Part shown: piece by piece, positions 4,068 through 23,890 of the stretch
Layout: each line of letters starts with the position of its first letter
How positions within the stretch are numbered: the first letter of the stretch is position 1
Source: Clostridiaceae bacterium
Lineage (GTDB): Bacteria; Bacillota; Clostridia; Tissierellales; Sporanaerobacteraceae
Assembly (NCBI GenBank): GCA_019391515.1
Contig: JAHXQP010000009.1
Location: 62,001-126,000 of the forward strand
Reading direction: 5' to 3'
DNA: 64,000 nucleotides
The notes under the pieces: generated by a model
Databases searched by the model: none
Told to the model about the DNA's origin: nothing
Seen by the model: the letters and a program-made list of their open reading frames with translations, nothing else
Translations under genes and position numbers: made by a program

Positions 4068-6032
4068 ATGAATGATATTTTGAAAGATAGATGGATTGAA
4101 ATTTTAAAAATACTATTAAGTAACACCTATCCTATAACTATAAATGATATAGAAAAAAAATTAAAGGTTTCTAATAGGACTATTAGAAACGATTTAGATA
4201 AAATAGATGAAATTATTCAAAGAGAAGGATATGGAAAAATCATAAGAAAACCTAGAGTAGGTATATGGATAGAATTAAACGGAGATAAAGAGAAGGAATT
4301 TAGAGATAATTTAAGAATAACTAGTTCTTATACCCAACCTTTTTTACCAGAAGAAAGACAAAATTATATTTTGAAGAGACTTTTAAAAGTACAACAACCA
4401 ATTACAATGGAAGAGATTTCAGGAGAGTTATATGTAAGTAGAGTAACCGTATTTAAAGATCTAGATGAGGTTGAAAAAAAAGTAAAAGATTATAAACTAT
4501 CTATTCTAAGGAAACAAAACTATGGAGTTAAGCTAACGGGAGAAGAAAAGGATTTCAGAAGGTTAGCAGGCGATTTTTTCCAAGGCTTAAATATTGATGA
4601 TTTGTACAATGAGTGTGGCAGCGATATGAAAATGTTTTCTAAAGAGAATCTGTATATTATATCTGAAATTGTAAAAGAAGCTGAGAAAAAAATGGAGATT
4701 AAATTGTCTGATGAATCTATTTCTAATTTAATTTTTCACTCAGCAATTTCAATAGAAAGAATAAAACAAAATAAAGTTATTGAACTTACAGAAGATGATG
4801 TTTCTGATATTAAAGCACAAAAGGAATATTATATTGCAAAGTTATTAGCAGCTAAATTGGAAGAAAATTTTAAAGTTTCAATACCTGAAGATGAAATTTA
4901 TTATATAGCGATTCATATATTAGGATCTAAATTACAACAGTCTTATAGTTTAGACAATAGTTTGAAGATATTGGATAATATCGATAAAGAGATAGTTAAT
5001 TTGTCTAGGGAGATAATAGAACTAATAGGAAATATATTATCTATGGATTTGACCAAAGACAAAAAAGCGCTGGTAGGACTGGCATTACATTTAAAACCAA
5101 CTATCAATAGATTAAAATATGGTCTTACTATAAAAAATCCACTTATTGATGAAATAAAAGAAAATTATCCTAGTATTTTTGGAGCAAGCTGGGCAAGTAG
5201 TGTTTTATTTGAAAAATATTATGGATTTAAAGTAAATGAAGATGAAATAGGATATATAGCAATCCATATTGGAGCTGCAATAGAGAGACAAAAGTCCAAT
5301 ACTAAGGCTGTAGTAGTATGCAGTAGTGGTGTCGGTACATCCCAGTTAGTATCTATAAGATTAGAAAAAGCTTTACCAAGTCTTCAAATTGTAGATATAG
5401 TTTCAAAACATGAAATTGAAAACATAGAAATAAAAACTTTTGATATAGTTATTTCTACAATACCTCTTGATTATTATTTAAAGCCAGTGGTTCAAATAAG
5501 TCCTTTTTTAGAGGAAAAAGATATATTAGAGATAAAAAAATGGGTTATAAATATTGAAAATACCAAGAGATTAGATGTAGGTCTGATGGAAGATAATTCT
5601 CAAGTTTTATTTAAATCAGATTTAATCTTTTCCAATTTGAAACTAAAGACAAAAGAATCAGTGATAGAATTTTTAAGTTATCACATGATGAAACAAAACT
5701 ATGTAAAAGCAGATTTCGTAACAGAAGTATTTGAAAGAGAAAAACTTACTTCTACAGCTATAGGGAATGGGGTAGCTATTCCTCATGCTAATCAACATTA
5801 TGTAAAAAGACCAGTTATAGCTTTTGCTACATTGGAGGAACCAATTGATTGGTCAGGGAACAATGTAGATATTGTTTTTTTACTAGGGCTAAATTTCGAT
5901 TCTAGAGACGTAATTAAAAAAACTTTTTCTGAGTTTTATAGATTATTAGATGATAAAGAAATATTAAGTAAAATTAGGAAAAGTAATAATAATGAAAAAA
6001 TATATAGATTATTGACGAAAGGAAGAAAATAG
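4068..6032 (+). CDS. PRD-containing transcriptional regulator with PTS EIIB- and EIIA-like domains (MtlR/BglG family)
   Basis: The 654-residue protein has two N-terminal helix-turn-helix regions (SNRTIRNDLDKID near residue 45, and SRVTVFKDLDEVEKK near 125), two PRD domains (about 190-410, each with conserved HxxIHI-type histidines such as YYIAIHILG and GYIAIHIGAA), a EIIB-like domain with VVVCSSGVGTSQ (Cys about 418) and a C-terminal fructose/mannitol-type EIIA domain with GVAIPHAN (His about 572). Proteins of this layout are activated or inhibited by phosphorylation from HPr and EII proteins. The stop is 1 nt before the EIIB-like gene, and HPr and EI follow, so it probably senses the general PTS. 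No transport EIIC is nearby. Confidence 0.88.
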   Translation: MNDILKDRWIEILKILLSNTYPITINDIEKKLKVSNRTIRNDLDKIDEIIQREGYGKIIRKPRVGIWIELNGDKEKEFRDNLRITSSYTQPFLPEERQNYILKRLLKVQQPITMEEISGELYVSRVTVFKDLDEVEKKVKDYKLSILRKQNYGVKLTGEEKDFRRLAGDFFQGLNIDDLYNECGSDMKMFSKENLYIISEIVKEAEKKMEIKLSDESISNLIFHSAISIERIKQNKVIELTEDDVSDIKAQKEYYIAKLLAAKLEENFKVSIPEDEIYYIAIHILGSKLQQSYSLDNSLKILDNIDKEIVNLSREIIELIGNILSMDLTKDKKALVGLALHLKPTINRLKYGLTIKNPLIDEIKENYPSIFGASWASSVLFEKYYGFKVNEDEIGYIAIHIGAAIERQKSNTKAVVVCSSGVGTSQLVSIRLEKALPSLQIVDIVSKHEIENIEIKTFDIVISTIPLDYYLKPVVQISPFLEEKDILEIKKWVINIENTKRLDVGLMEDNSQVLFKSDLIFSNLKLKTKESVIEFLSYHMMKQNYVKADFVTEVFEREKLTSTAIGNGVAIPHANQHYVKRPVIAFATLEEPIDWSGNNVDIVFLLGLNFDSRDVIKKTFSEFYRLLDDKEILSKIRKSNNNEKIYRLLTKGRK

Positions 6033-10425: not shown

Positions 10426-10563
10426 TAACAAAAAGTAATTTGCTTGTTAACTTTTGTTATTAATAAGTCTTTTTATTTATATAGATTTAAATTTACAATA
10501 ATTTGTTATATAATAGAATCATAGAATATTATGTGAATATAGTATATAAGGGTGTGTGAAACC

Positions 10564-11400
10564 TTGCAATATTTAAAAGAACTTTTTCTAAATGTAAGAA
10601 TTAGGGATATTATAGACATACTTATAGTAGCCTTTGCTTTTTATAAATTATTTATGCTTATAAGAGAAACAAGAGCAGAGCAACTTACTAAAGGAATTAT
10701 AGTTTTATTTGTTGCTACTAAGATAAGTGAGTGGTTAGAGTTATTTACTGTATATTGGATATTGGAAAAAACTATGACTGTTGGAGTTTTAGCTATTCTT
10801 ATTGTTTTTCAACCTGAATTGAGAAGAGGATTAGAATACATTGGTAGAAGTAGATTTTTTACTAAATCTTTTGCAGAGATAAAAGATGAGAGTTTAAATC
10901 AAGTAGTAGATGAAATAGTGGATGCAGTAGCCTCATTGTCGAGACAAAAAATTGGAGCATTGATAGTTATGGAGAGAGAAACTGGTCTAAGTGAAGTTGT
11001 AGAAACTGGAACTAGAATTGATGGTAAAATTTCAAGTGGTCTACTTATAAACATTTTTATACCTAATACCCCTCTTCATGATGGCGCAGTATTAATAAAA
11101 GAAGATATTGTCAAAGCAGCAGGCTGTTTTTTACCTTTAACAGACAACACATCTTTAAGTAAAGAATTAGGTACAAGACACAGGGCCGCGTTAGGCATAT
11201 CAGAAAAGTCAGATTGTCTAGCTATTGTCGTTTCAGAAGAAACAGGTGCAATATCAATAGCGGAAAATGGGAGCCTAGCAAGGTATCTGGATACAAAAAC
11301 ATTGAAACAAATACTTATTGATATGTATAAACCTAAAATTCAACGACAAAGTTTTTTTATAAAGTGGAGGCGTAAAGATGAGCAAGGAGAAGAAAAGTAA
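10564..11400 (+). CDS. cdaA: Diadenylate cyclase CdaA (c-di-AMP synthase)
   Basis: CdaA makes cyclic di-AMP from two ATP at the membrane. The protein has an amphipathic/TM N-terminus (RIRDIIDILIVAFAFYKLFML, then two more hydrophobic segments) and a DAC domain from about residue 95. The catalytic motifs are visible: PNTPLHDGAVLI (DGA) and GTRHRAALGISE (RHR). I prefer the TTG at 10564, because AAGGGTG lies about 10 nt upstream and family proteins start with a short LKELFLN-type segment; a GTG at 10552 is the alternative. It overlaps cdaR by 23 nt. c-di-AMP made here could act on the riboswitch at about 20.5 kb. Confidence 0.95.
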   Translation: MQYLKELFLNVRIRDIIDILIVAFAFYKLFMLIRETRAEQLTKGIIVLFVATKISEWLELFTVYWILEKTMTVGVLAILIVFQPELRRGLEYIGRSRFFTKSFAEIKDESLNQVVDEIVDAVASLSRQKIGALIVMERETGLSEVVETGTRIDGKISSGLLINIFIPNTPLHDGAVLIKEDIVKAAGCFLPLTDNTSLSKELGTRHRAALGISEKSDCLAIVVSEETGAISIAENGSLARYLDTKTLKQILIDMYKPKIQRQSFFIKWRRKDEQGEEK

Positions 11401-12658
11401 TCTCACTATAAAAATCTTTTCTCTAGTAATTGCTATTATATTATGGAGTTATGTAATGAGCGAAGTCAATCCTAGAATAACTAAGGAATTTAGAAATATT
11501 GATGTTGTATTTTCTAACATGGAAGATTTAGAGCGTTCGGGCATTGAACTCATGTCTCCAAAAGAAGTCAAAATAAATGTAAAGGTTGAAGGTAGGAGAA
11601 GTGAAGTTTTAAAGCTTAGAGATACTGATATAATAGCAAAAGCAGATTTGAGTGGATATTCAGAAGGTACTAAGAAAGTACCTATATATATAGATGCACC
11701 AAGCAAAGTGGATATTGTTGATTATACCCCAAAGGAGATCTCTTTTAGGTTTGAAAGGATTGTATCTAAGGAAAAGCCAGTTGTGTTAAAAACTATAGGA
11801 AAACTTGAACCAGGGTATAGTTTAGGAGATGGAGAAATAAAACCTCAATCTGTAATATTAAAAGGACCTAAAAGCTGGGTAAATTCAGTTAGGGAAGTTG
11901 TAGCTGTAGTGGATATAACAGGTAAAACTAAGGATATAAATGCTACGGTGCCTATTAAGCTTTTAGATGATGACGGAAACGATGTAGGAAGGGTGGAGAA
12001 AGAGCCTAATGTTGTAGATGTCTTTATTCCTATGTATAGGAGTAGAAAAATTCCTATAGATATTCAATTAGATGGAAGCATTCCAGCTGAATATGAAAAT
12101 TATACATTGACTGTTTCACCTAAAGCGGTGGATGTAAAGGGTAATGATACTATTTTAAATAGTTTATCGTCTATAAAAACGGAGCCAATCAATGTATATA
12201 AACTTGTAGGAAGTGGGTCTGTAGAGACTGAATTATTATTACCTGAAGGTATAGAATTAGTTGATCCAAATAAAAAGATAATTGTAAGTTTAAAGTCGAA
12301 TAGTATTGAAAATGGAACAGATGTTGAAGATTCTGATGGAGAAGATGTAAATATTAATGAAAATATAAATAAAAGGTTTGATTATAGTTTTTCTGAAATA
12401 AGCGCTAGAAATTTAGGAGATGGATTAGTTATTGATACCAGCAATTCTACTAATAGCATAACAGTTGTTTTAAATGGTCCCAAAGATTATTTAAATTCAA
12501 TAGGAAAAGAAGTTTTGTCTCCAGAAATTGATTTAAAGGGATTAGATGAGGGAGTCCATGAAGTAAAATTAATTATAAAAGATATTAGGAAAATAAAAGT
12601 ATCAGATATTATTCCTGCTGAAGTAAAAGTTTCATTAAAAAGAGAAGAAAAGGAGTGA
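11378..12658 (+). CDS. cdaR: CdaA regulatory protein CdaR (YbbR-domain)
   Basis: This 426-residue protein has one N-terminal membrane helix (KIFSLVIAIILWSYVMSEVNP) followed by about four YbbR repeats outside the cell, for example FERIVSKEKPVVLKTIGKLEPGY and IPIDIQLDGSIPAEYENYTL. CdaR modulates the cyclase CdaA in Firmicutes. The start overlaps cdaA and has a GGAGG site within it, so translation is coupled. Only 4 nt separate it from butyrate kinase, which is unusual, because glmM is the normal third gene; here glmM is 20 kb away. Confidence 0.92.
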   Translation: MSKEKKSNLTIKIFSLVIAIILWSYVMSEVNPRITKEFRNIDVVFSNMEDLERSGIELMSPKEVKINVKVEGRRSEVLKLRDTDIIAKADLSGYSEGTKKVPIYIDAPSKVDIVDYTPKEISFRFERIVSKEKPVVLKTIGKLEPGYSLGDGEIKPQSVILKGPKSWVNSVREVVAVVDITGKTKDINATVPIKLLDDDGNDVGRVEKEPNVVDVFIPMYRSRKIPIDIQLDGSIPAEYENYTLTVSPKAVDVKGNDTILNSLSSIKTEPINVYKLVGSGSVETELLLPEGIELVDPNKKIIVSLKSNSIENGTDVEDSDGEDVNINENINKRFDYSFSEISARNLGDGLVIDTSNSTNSITVVLNGPKDYLNSIGKEVLSPEIDLKGLDEGVHEVKLIIKDIRKIKVSDIIPAEVKVSLKREEKE

Positions 12659-19475: not shown

Positions 19476-20480
19476 ATGAAAATAGGTGTATTTTGGAGAA
19501 AATTCAGAAATGTGGAATTTCAGAAAAAACTTACACCAGATAAAATTTATGACGATGCTTATGAAGAAGCATATCAACATTATATGGCTCTTAAAGAGTC
19601 GGGGTATAATGCAGTTTTGCTAGAATGGAAGGTGGATCCTAGAGAAACATTGAAAAATATTATTAAGGAAAAGGTAGATTTAATATTCAATGCTTCTAGT
19701 CTTAAAGAAATTTCATTTCTTGAAGCATTTGGTATACCTTATGTAGGATCGGGTATAGATTTAGTAGCTACTAACAAAGCTGTTAGAAAAGAAATAGTAG
19801 CTTTCAATAAATTGCCTACACCTAAGTTTGTAATAGCTAGAAGTCCAAAAAAGATTCCAAAGATAGATTTAAAGTATCCATTATTCGTAAAACCTTTAAG
19901 AGGTAGAGGAAGTGCTGGTATTAGCGAGGAAAATATAATTTATAAATATGAACAACTTCCTAAAGTAGTTGAAAAAATAACTGAAAAAATAGGGCAGCCA
20001 GCATTAATTGAGGAGTTTATAGATGGAAGAGAATTAACGGTTGGAATTATTGGATATAAAGAGCCTAAAGTACTACCTCTTCTAGAAATTGGATACAATT
20101 CTGCTAAAACAAATACTTATGAGCATAAAATGTTTGATAATGAAATAATACACTGTCCAGCAGATTTTCCCAAAGATATTGAAAATAAAATTAAAGAAAC
20201 AGCTCTAGAAATATATAAAGTTTTAAATGTCAAGGATTTTGGCAGAATAGATATGATTTTAGGAAAGGATAATATACCCTATTTCTTGGAGATAAATACT
20301 TTTGCGGGGCTTACCATGGCGGCAAGAAAAGGTGAAAAAGATGTTCACCATGGATATATGGGATATATGGCAAGTGAATTAGGGTATAATAGAGCAGAAT
20401 TTATTTCTATGATTACAGAGAGCGCTATAGATAGATATGGATTAATGGATGAAGAAAGAAAAGAACCACTCATTTCATAA
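19476..20480 (+). CDS. D-alanine--D-alanine ligase-like ATP-grasp enzyme
   Basis: The 334-residue protein has the ATP-grasp layout: an N-terminal domain with IFNASSLKEISFLEAFGIPYVGSG, the central FVKPLRGRGSAGIS glycine loop, EEFIDGRELTVGI, and a C-terminal metal site KDFGRIDMIL followed by FLEINTFAGLT. True Ddl proteins have a similar EINTxPGxT ending, but the N-terminal HGxxGEDG-type motif is not seen, so the amino acid substrate is uncertain and a dipeptide or amino-acid ligase role is possible. It lies between a long leader and a c-di-AMP riboswitch, but no terminator separates it from the riboswitch other than that of the riboswitch itself. Confidence 0.72.
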   Translation: MKIGVFWRKFRNVEFQKKLTPDKIYDDAYEEAYQHYMALKESGYNAVLLEWKVDPRETLKNIIKEKVDLIFNASSLKEISFLEAFGIPYVGSGIDLVATNKAVRKEIVAFNKLPTPKFVIARSPKKIPKIDLKYPLFVKPLRGRGSAGISEENIIYKYEQLPKVVEKITEKIGQPALIEEFIDGRELTVGIIGYKEPKVLPLLEIGYNSAKTNTYEHKMFDNEIIHCPADFPKDIENKIKETALEIYKVLNVKDFGRIDMILGKDNIPYFLEINTFAGLTMAARKGEKDVHHGYMGYMASELGYNRAEFISMITESAIDRYGLMDEERKEPLIS

Positions 20481-20516
20481 AAACCATGTACAGAAATATA
20501 TGAATATTCACAATTT

Positions 20517-20685
20517 AATCGCTTAATTCTTTTATTTTAAAAGAAGCGGGGGAATCATTTATATGGGGTGAATCCTCTTAGAGGTAGAGCATACCCTTGC
20601 CCGAATCCGTCAGTTAACTCCGTCAGCGTAGAAGGGGAATAGTATTTTGATTTAGACTATGGGCCCCATAGTCTAAATTTTATTA
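20517..20685 (+). promoter_or_regulatory. Cyclic di-AMP riboswitch (ydaO/yuaA class) with terminator
   Basis: The aptamer shows the recognised class features: CGCTT (20520-20524) pairing with AAGCG (20544-20548), GCGGGGGA (20546-20553), GGGGTGAATCC (20565-20575), AGGTAGAGC, then CCCTTGCCCGAATCCGTCAG and TTAACTCCGTCAGCGTA, ending near 20638. A perfect stem with arms TTTAGACTATGG and CCATAGTCTAAA (20651-20677) followed by TTTTATT serves as the expression platform. Class members turn genes off when c-di-AMP is bound by favouring the terminator. It controls the two genes that follow. The match is by recognition of conserved blocks, not by covariance scoring. Confidence 0.9.
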
Positions 20686-20715
20686 TAAATATTGCGCTTA
20701 GGGAGGGAGTGTCTT

Positions 20716-21831
20716 ATGAAGAATTGTCTTAGTTATGGGATTGTAGGAGCAGGAAATGGAGGCCTTGCAATGTCAGGTTATCTAGCTAAAAAAGGTTTCA
20801 TAGTAAATCTATATAATAGAACCCTACAAAAAATTCTACCATTAATGGAGAGATCAACTATTACCTTGACAGGGGAAAAAGAAGGTACTGGAAAGTTAAA
20901 TATAGTTAGTGACAATATAAAGGAAGTTATTGAAAATGTAGATATAATAATGGTGACTATTCCAGCTATGGGGCATTATAGACTTGGAAAGTTAATGGCT
21001 CCATATTTAAAAGATGGTCAAATAATAATTTTAAACCCAGGTAGGACAGGTGGTGCATTAGAACTATATACTGCCCTTAGAAAAAATGGATGTGATAAAG
21101 GCATAGTTGTAGGAGAAGCTCAAACTTTCATATATGCTTGTAGGAAAACTAGTGCTAGATCTGCTCATATATATAGAGAAAAAAATGAGGTATCTCTAGC
21201 ATGTATTCCATCTACAAAGACAGATGAAGTTATCCATATGCTTTCATCTGCATATCCACAATTTGTACCTGCAAGGGATGTTATTGAAACAAGTTTAAAT
21301 AATTATGGTGCTATATTTCATCCAGCTCCTACCTTATTAAATAGTGGTCATATCGAAAGAGGGGCACCATTTGATTATTATACAGAGGGAATTACACCCT
21401 CAATTAGTAGGTTTTTAGAAAAAATGGACCATGAGAGAATGAGAATAGCCCAAGCATTGAATGTTGAAACTTGCTCATCCAAGGATTGGTTATATGAATC
21501 CTATGGAGCAGTAGGAACAAACCTTTATGAAGCCATACAAAATAATCCAGGATATAAAGGACTTTTAGCTCCTAAAGGACTAAACATAAGATATATCTAT
21601 GAGGATGTACCCTATAGTTTAGTCCCTATGTCTTCACTTGGAAAGCAATTAGGTATAGATACTCCAGCAATAGATTCTGTAATTAGACTAGCTGAACTTA
21701 TGACAGGAAAAGATTTCTGGAATAGTGGTAGAACTGTTGAACATCTTGGTCTTAATGGATTAGACTTAGATGAAATACACAATTTTGCGCAAACTGGTAT
21801 AGCTACTAAAGAAAAAGGGGTGGTGGCATAA
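20716..21831 (+). CDS. Opine-dehydrogenase-family (octopine/nopine-type) NAD(P)-dependent protein
   Basis: The N-terminal Rossmann fold has GIVGAGNGGLAMSGYLAKKG and continues to about residue 180. The C-terminal domain resembles octopine/nopine dehydrogenases, with NNYGAIFHPAPTLLNSGHIERG, where the His and Asn resemble the catalytic pair, and RPAY-like helices. Known members condense an amino acid with a 2-oxoacid reductively. The ATG at 20716 is chosen because AGGGAGGG lies 6-8 nt upstream; the in-frame TTG at 20692 lies before that site. It overlaps the next gene by one base (TAATG). Both are under the c-di-AMP riboswitch. The product is unknown. Confidence 0.82.
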   Translation: MKNCLSYGIVGAGNGGLAMSGYLAKKGFIVNLYNRTLQKILPLMERSTITLTGEKEGTGKLNIVSDNIKEVIENVDIIMVTIPAMGHYRLGKLMAPYLKDGQIIILNPGRTGGALELYTALRKNGCDKGIVVGEAQTFIYACRKTSARSAHIYREKNEVSLACIPSTKTDEVIHMLSSAYPQFVPARDVIETSLNNYGAIFHPAPTLLNSGHIERGAPFDYYTEGITPSISRFLEKMDHERMRIAQALNVETCSSKDWLYESYGAVGTNLYEAIQNNPGYKGLLAPKGLNIRYIYEDVPYSLVPMSSLGKQLGIDTPAIDSVIRLAELMTGKDFWNSGRTVEHLGLNGLDLDEIHNFAQTGIATKEKGVVA

Positions 21832-23477
21832 TGAAGAAAATAATTGCTGGCACGATAGGAAACTGTGTGCATGTCGCAGGAACAATGAACTTTTTAACAT
21901 TAGCTGAAAAAGAAGGCTATAAGACAGAATTTTTAGGTATTGCACTTTCTATAGATAAAGTTATAGAAAAGATATCAGAATTAAATCCAGATATTGTAGC
22001 TTTAAGTTATAGACTTACTCCTGAACCATTAGAAGAAATACTTTGTGAATTAAAAGAAAAGATAGAAAGACAGAATATAAACAATGTAAAGTGGATGTTT
22101 GGTGGGACAGAACCTACTGCAAAAGTTGCAGAAAAAAGTGGGATTTTTCATAAGATTTTTTATGGAACAGAAGATATAGATGAAGTGATAGCTTACCTAA
22201 AGGGAAAGGATTATAAAAAACGAGAGTTCTATCCAAAAGATCTTATTACTAGAATTAATTCTAAATATCCTTATCCAATACTTAGGCATCACTTAGGCCT
22301 TCCATCTATAGAAAAAACAACTGAAGCAATAGAAAAAGTAGCAAAAGCAGAAGTATTAGATGTTATATCAATTGCACCAGATCAAAATGCTCAGGAACAT
22401 TTTTTTGAACAAGATAAAATGGACCATAGGCTAGATGGAGCAGGAGGGGTGCCTCTAAGAAGTAGAGAAGGTTTTAGTAAACTCTATGAAGCAGCTCAAG
22501 TAGGTAATTATCCTTTACTAAGATGTTATAGTGGAACTAAAAATTTGTTACCTTTTGCTAAAGTGCTAAAAGAGACTATTGATAATGCATGGTGTGCAGT
22601 ACCACTATTTTGGTATAGCGATTTAGATAAAAGGGGGCCTAGGACTATAAGAGAAGCCATGAAAGAAAATCAACAAGTAATGAAATGGCATGGAGATAGA
22701 GATATTCCTGTAGAGGTAAATGATCCTCATCATTGGAGTTTGAGAGATGCACATGATGCCATAGGAGTAGCTGCTGCATATTTAGCTGCTTATAACGCTA
22801 AAAAAATGGGTGTAAATGACTATATAGCACAATATATGTTTAATGTACCTGCATTTATGTCTCCACAAATGGATTTAGCTAAGATGCTTGCAAAAATAGA
22901 ATTAGTAGAAAGTTTAGAAGATGAAAACTTTAGAATATATAGACAGGCAAGAGCAGGTTTAGCAAGTTTTCCAGCAGATTTAAGTCAAGCTAAAGGTCAA
23001 TTGGCTTCATCAGCTTATCTAGCTATGGCTATAAAACCTCATATATATCATGTAGTTGGATATTGCGAGGCACATCATGCAGCTGGAGCAGAGGAAATAA
23101 TAGAATCTTGTAAAATAGTTAGAGGCGTAATAAGGAATGAATTTTTAGGTACGGTAGATATGACTAAAAATTTAATAGTAGAAGAGAGGAAAAAAGAACT
23201 TATAGAAGAAGCTAATTTAATATTAGAGGCAATTAAAGTTTTAAATCCTACAGCAAAAGATCCGTTATCAGATGTAGAAACTTTATCAAGAGCAGTCGAA
23301 ACAGGATTATTGGATACTCCACAATTTAAGGGGAACCCAGCCGCAAAAGGAAAATTAACTACTCGTTTAGTTAATGGAGCACTATATCCTTATGATACTA
23401 GAGAAGGAAGAGTTATATCAGAAAGAGAAAGAATAGATAGAATAATTAAAAATAATGAAGAAAAATCAGTAGTATAA
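21831..23477 (+). CDS. Cobalamin-binding mutase-like protein (glutamate-mutase-like fold), function unknown
   Basis: Residues 1-125 look like a B12-binding domain: GTIGNCVHVAG contains the axial histidine (H14) of the DxHxxG motif, although the Asp is Cys here (C12); ALSYRLT supplies the Ser and MFGGTEPT the GG. Residues 150-548 resemble a TIM-barrel mutase domain with blocks such as SIAPDQNAQEHFFEQ, HGDRDIPVEVNDPHHW, HDAIGVAAAYLAAYNAKKMG and YCEAHHAAGAEEIIES. B12 domain before the barrel is opposite to methylmalonyl-CoA mutase and unlike OraE, and no PLP site is obvious. Coupled to the opine dehydrogenase-like gene. The reaction is unknown to me. Confidence 0.68.
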   Translation: MKKIIAGTIGNCVHVAGTMNFLTLAEKEGYKTEFLGIALSIDKVIEKISELNPDIVALSYRLTPEPLEEILCELKEKIERQNINNVKWMFGGTEPTAKVAEKSGIFHKIFYGTEDIDEVIAYLKGKDYKKREFYPKDLITRINSKYPYPILRHHLGLPSIEKTTEAIEKVAKAEVLDVISIAPDQNAQEHFFEQDKMDHRLDGAGGVPLRSREGFSKLYEAAQVGNYPLLRCYSGTKNLLPFAKVLKETIDNAWCAVPLFWYSDLDKRGPRTIREAMKENQQVMKWHGDRDIPVEVNDPHHWSLRDAHDAIGVAAAYLAAYNAKKMGVNDYIAQYMFNVPAFMSPQMDLAKMLAKIELVESLEDENFRIYRQARAGLASFPADLSQAKGQLASSAYLAMAIKPHIYHVVGYCEAHHAAGAEEIIESCKIVRGVIRNEFLGTVDMTKNLIVEERKKELIEEANLILEAIKVLNPTAKDPLSDVETLSRAVETGLLDTPQFKGNPAAKGKLTTRLVNGALYPYDTREGRVISERERIDRIIKNNEEKSVV

Positions 23478-23486
23478 AATTAATTT

Positions 23487-23516
23487 AAAAATAGGCTGTT
23501 TAAACAGCCTATTTTT
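23487..23516 (+). terminator. Rho-independent terminator of the riboswitch operon
   Basis: A perfect palindrome, AAAAATAGGCTGTTT and its complement, ending in TTTTT. Confidence 0.92.
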
Positions 23517-23890
23517 ATGCTTAGTTAAGCACACTCAATTTAATTATTAATTTTAAATTACTATATATGTTATAATATAACTGGGAGAATTATAAGTAAA
23601 AAATGGGATTAGGAGAGTTAAAATATTGAAGGTTATTGGTACTACAGTTAGGGAGAATAAAGAAGTTTTAAGAGATATTGATGGGGAAAATTAAAGCTAT
23701 TATCTAAAATAGTTAATATCTTGTTATAGATATATTAAAATGTAATTCAGGCCATGGGATATTTTGGAAAAAGGATTGAAAAAACCTTTTATTTAATATA
23801 TACTATTCCTTATAAGTTGAAAGTAATATATAAATCTAATGATCATATATGTTGCACGTGTTGCTATTAGTAGGTTTGGAGGTGTATATA
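23517..23890 (+). other. Intergenic region and probable leader upstream of fabH
   Basis: The 374 nt hold a -10 like TATAAT (23571-23576) with no good -35, and a possible 22-codon reading frame starting TTG at 23627 (KVIGTTVRENKEVLRDIDGE), which has an AGGAGAG site upstream but is too short to identify. It might be a leader peptide or the remnant of a gene. Around 23820, GAAAGTAATATATA resembles part of the inverted repeat upstream of fabZ/fabF2. No other gene is seen. Confidence 0.4.

Follow-up and report, generated by a model that had tools for sequence, protein, structure and literature searches.

The c-di-AMP (ydaO/yuaA) riboswitches of K+ uptake operons, such as the one ahead of Bacillus thuringiensis kdpFABC, consist of an RF00379 aptamer followed by an intrinsic terminator, and OFF logic has been shown for that operon (PMC6488665). 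Opine dehydrogenases are represented by CENDH from Arthrobacter (PDB 1bg6) and by the hot-spring metagenomic enzymes (mODHs); exchanging the residue pair A111/N198 against R110/G198 was reported to switch opine dehydrogenases between L-phenylalanine and L-aspartate, while Arg35 goes with NADPH (PMC10787698). Among B12 enzymes, the relevant comparisons are glutamate mutase (GlmES/MutES) with MutL, and the ornithine and lysine aminomutases (OraSE, KamDE). Here we describe a locus in which relatives of these elements are found together, in a 64,000-nucleotide stretch of a Clostridiaceae bacterium genome (GCA_019391515.1, contig JAHXQP010000009.1, positions 62,001 to 126,000), hereafter the window. 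In contrast to the kdpFABC switch, the aptamer precedes a two-enzyme pair rather than a transporter. We found no paper reporting the switch together with either enzyme, or opine dehydrogenase together with glutamate mutase, although gene lists in earlier ydaO papers (PMC2916388, PMC3830699, PMC4294798, PMC4217635, PMC4282576) may already name this pair.

The aptamer and the gene pair

A preliminary description, made from sequence alone, proposed a c-di-AMP riboswitch ahead of an opine-dehydrogenase-like and a B12-mutase-like gene, and this was confirmed. A covariance-model search placed an RF00379 aptamer at 20510-20643 (+), covering model positions 1-134 with 88.8 bits against a gathering score of 38 (E 2e-19 for the 64-kb window), so the start given previously (20517) is 7 bases late. 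It was the only match in the 2,837,743-base, 99.48% complete genome, and it ends 72 bases before the first gene of the pair, which is far more than chance. P1 is formed by 20520-20523 with 20625-20628, and an alignment of 31 leaders gave 27 consensus pairs, 9 of them with kept double changes. An intrinsic-terminator-like hairpin of 14 pairs with a loop of 3 and a T-rich tail lies at 20649-20679 (+) (-16.7 kcal/mol). The same scan found 4 such sites in 4.8 kb against a shuffled mean of 2.1, so this hairpin counts for its length and place rather than for rarity. A candidate antiterminator, exclusive with the terminator, was inferred at 20634-20667 (+), where 20634-20643 (GGGGAAUAGU) could pair with 20656-20667 (ACUAU..CCCC) at -11.6 kcal/mol. 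However, it pairs only bases 3' of P1, so its coupling to ligand binding is a guess, and the minimum-energy fold of the whole leader shows the terminator.

The first gene, at 20716-21831 (+), encodes an opine dehydrogenase (ODH). Its ATG at 20716 follows GGGAGGGAG, while the mechanically called open reading frame begins at TTG 20692. The protein matched Octopine_DH (PF02317) with 160 bits and CENDH 1bg6 by phmmer with E 2e-85, and its AF2 model (pLDDT 93.7) aligned to 1bg6 with Z 50.6, 38% identity, and an rmsd of 1.5 over 348 residues. The second gene, at 21831-23477 (+), has a start that overlaps the ODH stop and encodes a one-chain B12 mutase of 548 residues. A B12-binding match of 44 bits covers residues 3-116. 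In the AF2 model (pLDDT 90.7), residues 1-126 aligned to corrinoid proteins with Z 15.7, and residues 133-537 aligned to glutamate mutase E (1cb7_B) with Z 31.9 and an rmsd of 3.0 over 374 residues. The N-terminal B12 domain (about 21831-22208) is followed by a glutamate-mutase-like TIM barrel (about 22227-23441). A palindrome at 23486-23517, scored on the - strand only, is a possible end-of-operon terminator. An ATP-grasp ligase gene at 19476-20480 (+) lies just before the aptamer, so it is not behind this switch. A source of the signal in the same cell, a CdaA diadenylate cyclase gene (DAC 156 bits, CdaA_N 50 bits), lies 9 kb upstream at 10552-11400 (+), and a second DAC gene was found on another contig.

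Recurrence of the linkage across genomes

To explore whether the association was specific to this genome, we examined related loci elsewhere. The aptamer lies before the pair in 30 of 32 related loci with upstream DNA, and in 36 of 80 loci from a phylum survey, 8 of which are near-copies of the former (28 of 70 after near-copies and short rows were removed). Rfam confirmed 11 of 12 rechecked, and one locus was hit by our own model but not by Rfam. Aptamer presence was clustered on the mutase tree, with 13 changes against a shuffled mean of 40.3 and 0 of 500 shuffles as low. In one genome (locus L069), different c-di-AMP hardware precedes the same genes instead: a BusR-like GntR-TrkA_C regulator gene and a PstA-like c-di-AMP receptor (CdAMP_rec) gene. 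This protein-based tie rests on that one genome. In five loci the aptamer precedes the ligase of a ligase-odh-mut module, and in another, one aptamer heads an asnB-like gene and a second heads the pair. Other aptamers in pair-bearing genomes head mostly wall hydrolases and peptide-transport genes, an ordinary c-di-AMP regulon.

Control by this RNA is not universal. Of 119 loci, 58 lack a detected aptamer, some because the contig is cut, and Rfam found none in 10 of these. In a class survey, only 4 of 22 mutase genomes, this one included, have the aptamer before the module, and one locus carries a fluoride riboswitch there instead. ODH and mutase lie on one strand within 3.5 kb in 115 of 119 loci and in 13 of 13 Chloroflexota, while three loci have the mutase without a nearby ODH. 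No relative of the mutase was found on plasmids at E 1e-5. Six rows under 480 residues and nine near-copies were dropped from the 119 loci before counts, whereas near-copies remain in the 126 ODH and 129 mutase rows described below. One locus, flagged with an inner stop, was left out of the alignments. Five of the 85 other genomes with a mutase hit were not included, nor was one of 21 others as a long neighbourhood.

A minority of loci also carry a third gene. The ATP-grasp of the window has a Ddl C-terminal domain (Dala_Dala_lig_C, 103 bits) and is related to ATP-grasp genes next to the pair in other genomes, with 38% identity to one module ligase (E 1e-60) and 28-36% to others, against E 1e-18 for a two-domain Ddl from another locus. 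Divergent Ddl genes in six loci were not counted as module ligases, because the one tested has both Ddl domains and all six are among the weakest matches to the ATP-grasp of the window. Most of the 119 loci show neither a ligase nor an asnB-like gene within 4.5 kb, so a third step is not general. MutL genes lie beside the module in four loci.

Signature residues and proposed pathway

All 126 module ODHs compared carry R110 and G198, as do 13 of 13 from Chloroflexota, against 3 of 22 PF02317 proteins without a mutase in their short locus, one of the 22 being a fragment without position 110. Of 33 PF02317 matches, the 30 that came with loci were compared, and two loci were noted that carry R110/G198 without a mutase in their short loci. 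Our positions align with A111 and N198 of 1bg6, and H202 is kept. H202 and D297, probably the catalytic pair, are present in 126 of 126, although three of the 13 Chloroflexota ODHs have Glu for Asp297. The window ODH also carries R35. The mODHs have the same Arg/Gly signature and, in five of six, Arg35, features that have been tied to L-aspartate preference and NADPH (PMC10787698).

The mutase resembles glutamate mutase in its TIM-barrel catalytic part and B12 domain, but differs in being a single chain with the B12 domain at the N terminus rather than separate S and E subunits. The Pfam MutE match (19.8 bits) falls below the cut-off of 26.6 and was not used to assign membership. The window protein has CxHxxG in place of DxHxxG. 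Across the mutase rows, His and Gly are kept in 126 of 126 rows with letters, while the Asp position is Cys in 111, Asp in 11, and a gap in 7 of 129. The three arginines that probably hold glutamate in glutamate mutase (66, 100, 149) align with H154, Q188, and Y233, which are kept in 127, 129, and 129 of 129, although the hhalign match is of modest confidence (probability 78%). The aminomutases have a similar barrel (Z 26-30), but only the B12 domain matched OraE by profile.

Taken together, we favor a pathway that c-di-AMP represses, with a rough probability of 0.5 for the reading as a whole. When c-di-AMP is high (turgor or K+ sufficient), the aptamer would fold, the hairpin at 20649-20679 would stop transcription, and the pair would be silent; when c-di-AMP falls, transcription would read through. 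The direction of control is inferred from the terminator and from a published member of the class (PMC6488665). ODH would join an aspartate/glutamate-type amino acid to a short 2-keto acid (probably pyruvate) with NADPH, giving an acidic opine, and the mutase would rearrange the carbon skeleton of that opine or of the amino acid that feeds ODH. An ATP-using ligase or amidotransferase, here perhaps the ATP-grasp at 19476-20480, may then amidate or extend the product, which most likely serves osmotic or K+ balance as a compatible solute or counter-ion. Regulation of the pair by c-di-AMP and membership of the two enzymes in one pathway are both very likely. Acidic-opine chemistry is more likely than not, an osmotic or K+ role slightly less so, and action of the mutase on the opine rather than the free amino acid is somewhat less than an even bet. 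Tentatively, the product could be a new class of compatible solute or K+ counter-ion, an opine of an acidic amino acid rearranged by a new one-chain mutase lacking the arginine claw and acting on the opine itself, in some lineages capped by an ATP-grasp ligase or an asparagine-synthetase-like enzyme, and shut off through a riboswitch or, elsewhere, through BusR/PstA-type proteins. Such a system would be spread over anaerobic Bacillota and, as the bare enzyme pair, Chloroflexota.

Alternative roles and biological meaning

The main alternative, less likely but with the same regulation, is that the mutase acts first, making a branched acidic amino acid (such as 3-methylaspartate from glutamate) that ODH then condenses with a keto acid. 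Glutamate mutase E is the closest fold, and the ODH signature fits an acidic amino-acid substrate, yet the replaced arginines speak against it, within the modest confidence of that alignment. The preliminary description had suggested an osmolyte or a wall-related amino acid, with synthesis switched off by c-di-AMP. This interpretation is supported by the covariance hit and the linkage in other genomes, although the product and its switching off by c-di-AMP are inferred, and the osmolyte reading gained some independent support from the BusR-like and PstA-like genes in L069. The wall alternative, in which the Ddl-like ATP-grasp and the ODH make a modified amino acid for peptidoglycan or surface polysaccharide, is weaker and appears unlikely, but is not excluded. 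c-di-AMP switches often head wall genes, one module lies among polysaccharide genes, an lgt gene lies downstream of the pair in 10 loci of one group, and lnt genes are found in two loci. However, no peptidoglycan-precursor gene recurred among the neighbors we annotated, which are only a part of all neighbors, and the ATP-grasp of the window scores far below the NCBIfam Ddl cut-off (125 of 243 bits).

A catabolic or fermentative role, in which the pair degrades an imported opine or peptide and c-di-AMP merely tunes nutrient use, is also doubtful. The genome has what looks like an ornithine aminomutase operon with its MutL, and opine dehydrogenases are reversible, but no importer or degradation gene recurred among the annotated neighbors; an MFS transporter of unknown direction follows in three loci. 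A metal chelator is the least likely reading. ODH shares its fold with staphylopine, pseudopaline, and yersinopine dehydrogenases (Z 30-34), yet CENDH fits far better, and no metal transporter or nicotianamine-synthase-like partner appeared among the annotated neighbors.

c-di-AMP is known for closing K+ and osmolyte uptake. A dedicated biosynthetic route behind its riboswitch, and in this genome the only gene set found behind it, would suggest that anaerobes answer the same signal by making a solute. The conserved pair also exposes a B12 mutase family with a rebuilt pocket and a predicted new substrate, and gives opine dehydrogenases of the acidic-substrate type a possible cellular job.

The riboswitch leader and the two enzymes

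The leader at 20510-20643 is a full-length c-di-AMP aptamer, scoring 88.8 bits against a gathering score of 38. It is the only RF00379 match in the 2.84-Mb genome, which also codes for two diadenylate cyclases. One of these, CdaA, lies in this window at 10552-11400 and is followed by what may be a YbbR/CdaR-like gene, the two spanning 10552-12658. A 14-pair hairpin with a T-rich tail follows the aptamer at 20649-20679 (-16.7 kcal/mol). The sequence GGGGAAUAGU just after P1 can pair with ACUAU..CCCC of that hairpin (-11.6 kcal/mol), making it a candidate antiterminator, although this is an inference and the minimum-energy fold of the whole leader shows the terminator. The opine dehydrogenase (ODH) gene starts at ATG 20716, and its stop overlaps the mutase ATG at 21831, so the two are probably translationally coupled.

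ODH matches CENDH over its whole length. His202/Asp297 are kept in 126 of 126 module ODHs, as are Arg110 and Gly198, while position 35 is R in 115 and K in 8 of 126. The phmmer alignment puts R110 on A111 and G198 on N198 of 1bg6. Double mutants that exchange exactly these residues switched preference between L-phenylalanine and L-aspartate, and Arg35 went with NADPH (PMC10787698). In a control of 30 PF02317 loci, R110 plus G198 was observed in 8 of 8 with a mutase in the locus and in 3 of 22 without. Of those three loci, L220 sits near a contig end behind an aptamer, while L198 and L200 are true exceptions as far as their short loci show.

The mutase has a B12 domain at residues 1-126 and a glutamate-mutase barrel at 133-537. 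Profile alignment with glutamate mutase E puts H154, Q188, and Y233 at the positions of the three arginines that probably hold the substrate in that enzyme, and these residues are kept in 127, 129, and 129 of 129 rows. The pocket has therefore probably been rebuilt, and we do not classify the protein as a glutamate mutase. The cobalt-binding motif is CxHxxG in 111 of 129 rows and DxHxxG in 11. A distant branch of 603-651-residue mutases was also found (loci L072-L076), four of five next to ODH and with a DxHxxG motif, the fifth being cut by a contig end.

Linkage of the pair to c-di-AMP sensing

To explore how general the link is, we first scanned a collection of genome contigs, which gave 34 loci. 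Of these, 32 have DNA upstream of the mutase, and in 30 of the 32 Rfam finds the aptamer before ODH. The exceptions are L031 (Anaerolineales), which has none, and L029 (same contig as locus L061), which has a fluoride riboswitch (RF01734, 50.3 bits) at 4685-4746 in place of the c-di-AMP aptamer, about 115 bases before the likely ODH start. In a class survey, 22 of 391 genomes have the mutase, and 4 of the 22 (this one and genomes G302, G037, and G328) have the aptamer before the module. In a phylum survey, 86 of 398 have the mutase, and of 80 fetched neighbourhoods, 36 have the aptamer upstream of the module by our own model, R1. Given that R1 was trained on 31 leaders and that 8 of these 36 are near-copies of loci already counted, the figure is not independent; 28 of 70 remain after removal. 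Rfam confirmed the aptamer in 11 of 12 rechecked loci, the exception being L188. Over all sets, 61 of 119 loci carry it. On the mutase tree, window included, this distribution needs 13 changes against a shuffled mean of 40.3, with 0 of 500 shuffles as low, although this was a quick tree with long branches. Rfam found no aptamer in 10 of the loci without an R1 hit, so many absences are probably real. Two c-di-AMP aptamers were observed in tandem before ODH in locus L126, and in locus L186 an OLE RNA (4172-4824, 474.5 bits) lies on the strand opposite to the ODH-mutase module and its aptamer.

A second route to the same signal was seen in locus L069 (genome G209), where the order is GntR-TrkA_C regulator, CdAMP_rec protein, mutase, ODH, all on one strand. 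TrkA_C and PF06153 are listed as c-di-AMP receptors (PMC7288161), and the first gene may be similar to BusR. This is an independent c-di-AMP tie, by protein instead of RNA, but it comes from one genome. We also looked at 11 other aptamers in pair-bearing genomes and tested nine downstream proteins, which were three NlpC/P60 proteins, two LysM cell-wall hydrolases, two family-5 solute-binding proteins, one CAP-domain protein, and one weak TrkH match below its cut-off. This set resembles the c-di-AMP regulon as summarised in PMC7266159.

Genomic partners of the pair

ODH and mutase lie on one strand within 3.5 kb in 115 of 119 loci, in the order odh-mut in 111 and mut-odh in 4. Of the 4 exceptions, one (L076) is at a contig end. 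In Chloroflexota, reached through L031, 13 of 201 genomes have the mutase, 13 of 13 next to an ODH, mostly in the order mut-odh, and 13 of 13 with R110/G198. One Chloroflexota mutase relative (L251) lies in an open frame of over 1000 residues and is possibly a fusion.

ATP-grasp genes lie on the same strand within 4.5 kb in 14 of 119 loci and asnB-like genes in 13 of 119, so these partners are a minority feature. The aptamer precedes the ATP-grasp in loci L062, L142, L154, L156, and L184, and in L112 one aptamer heads an asnB-like gene and another heads the pair. The ATP-grasp at 19476-20480 in the window belongs with these module ligases (38% to that of locus L152, E 1e-60), although it lies before the aptamer. 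MutL genes stand by the module in loci L129, L134, L144, and L160. The window's own genome has one MutL, on contig C18 (locus L196), in what looks like an ornithine 4,5-aminomutase operon, apparently a second B12 mutase system in the same cell.

Proposed mechanism and role

The preliminary description, that a c-di-AMP riboswitch controls an opine-dehydrogenase-like and B12-mutase-like gene pair, is confirmed as an observation, and its interpretation, a small molecule, perhaps an osmolyte or a wall-related amino acid, whose synthesis is switched off by c-di-AMP, is supported and sharpened, although the wall-related alternative is the weaker one and the product and direction of control are inferred. 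The riboswitch class is known, while for the widely conserved enzyme pair behind it we found no description, and no paper on the combination was identified in a literature search that did not cover five main ydaO papers.

We infer that high c-di-AMP stops transcription, as shown for kdpFABC (PMC6488665), and that low c-di-AMP lets ODH and mutase be made. In this proposed pathway, ODH forms an acidic opine, the mutase rearranges the opine or its amino-acid precursor, and a ligase or amidotransferase finishes it in some lineages. Because the claw arginines are gone, we favour the opine as the mutase substrate, but not strongly. While the role rests on the regulation alone, an acidic or amidated opine fits a compatible solute or K+ counter-ion.
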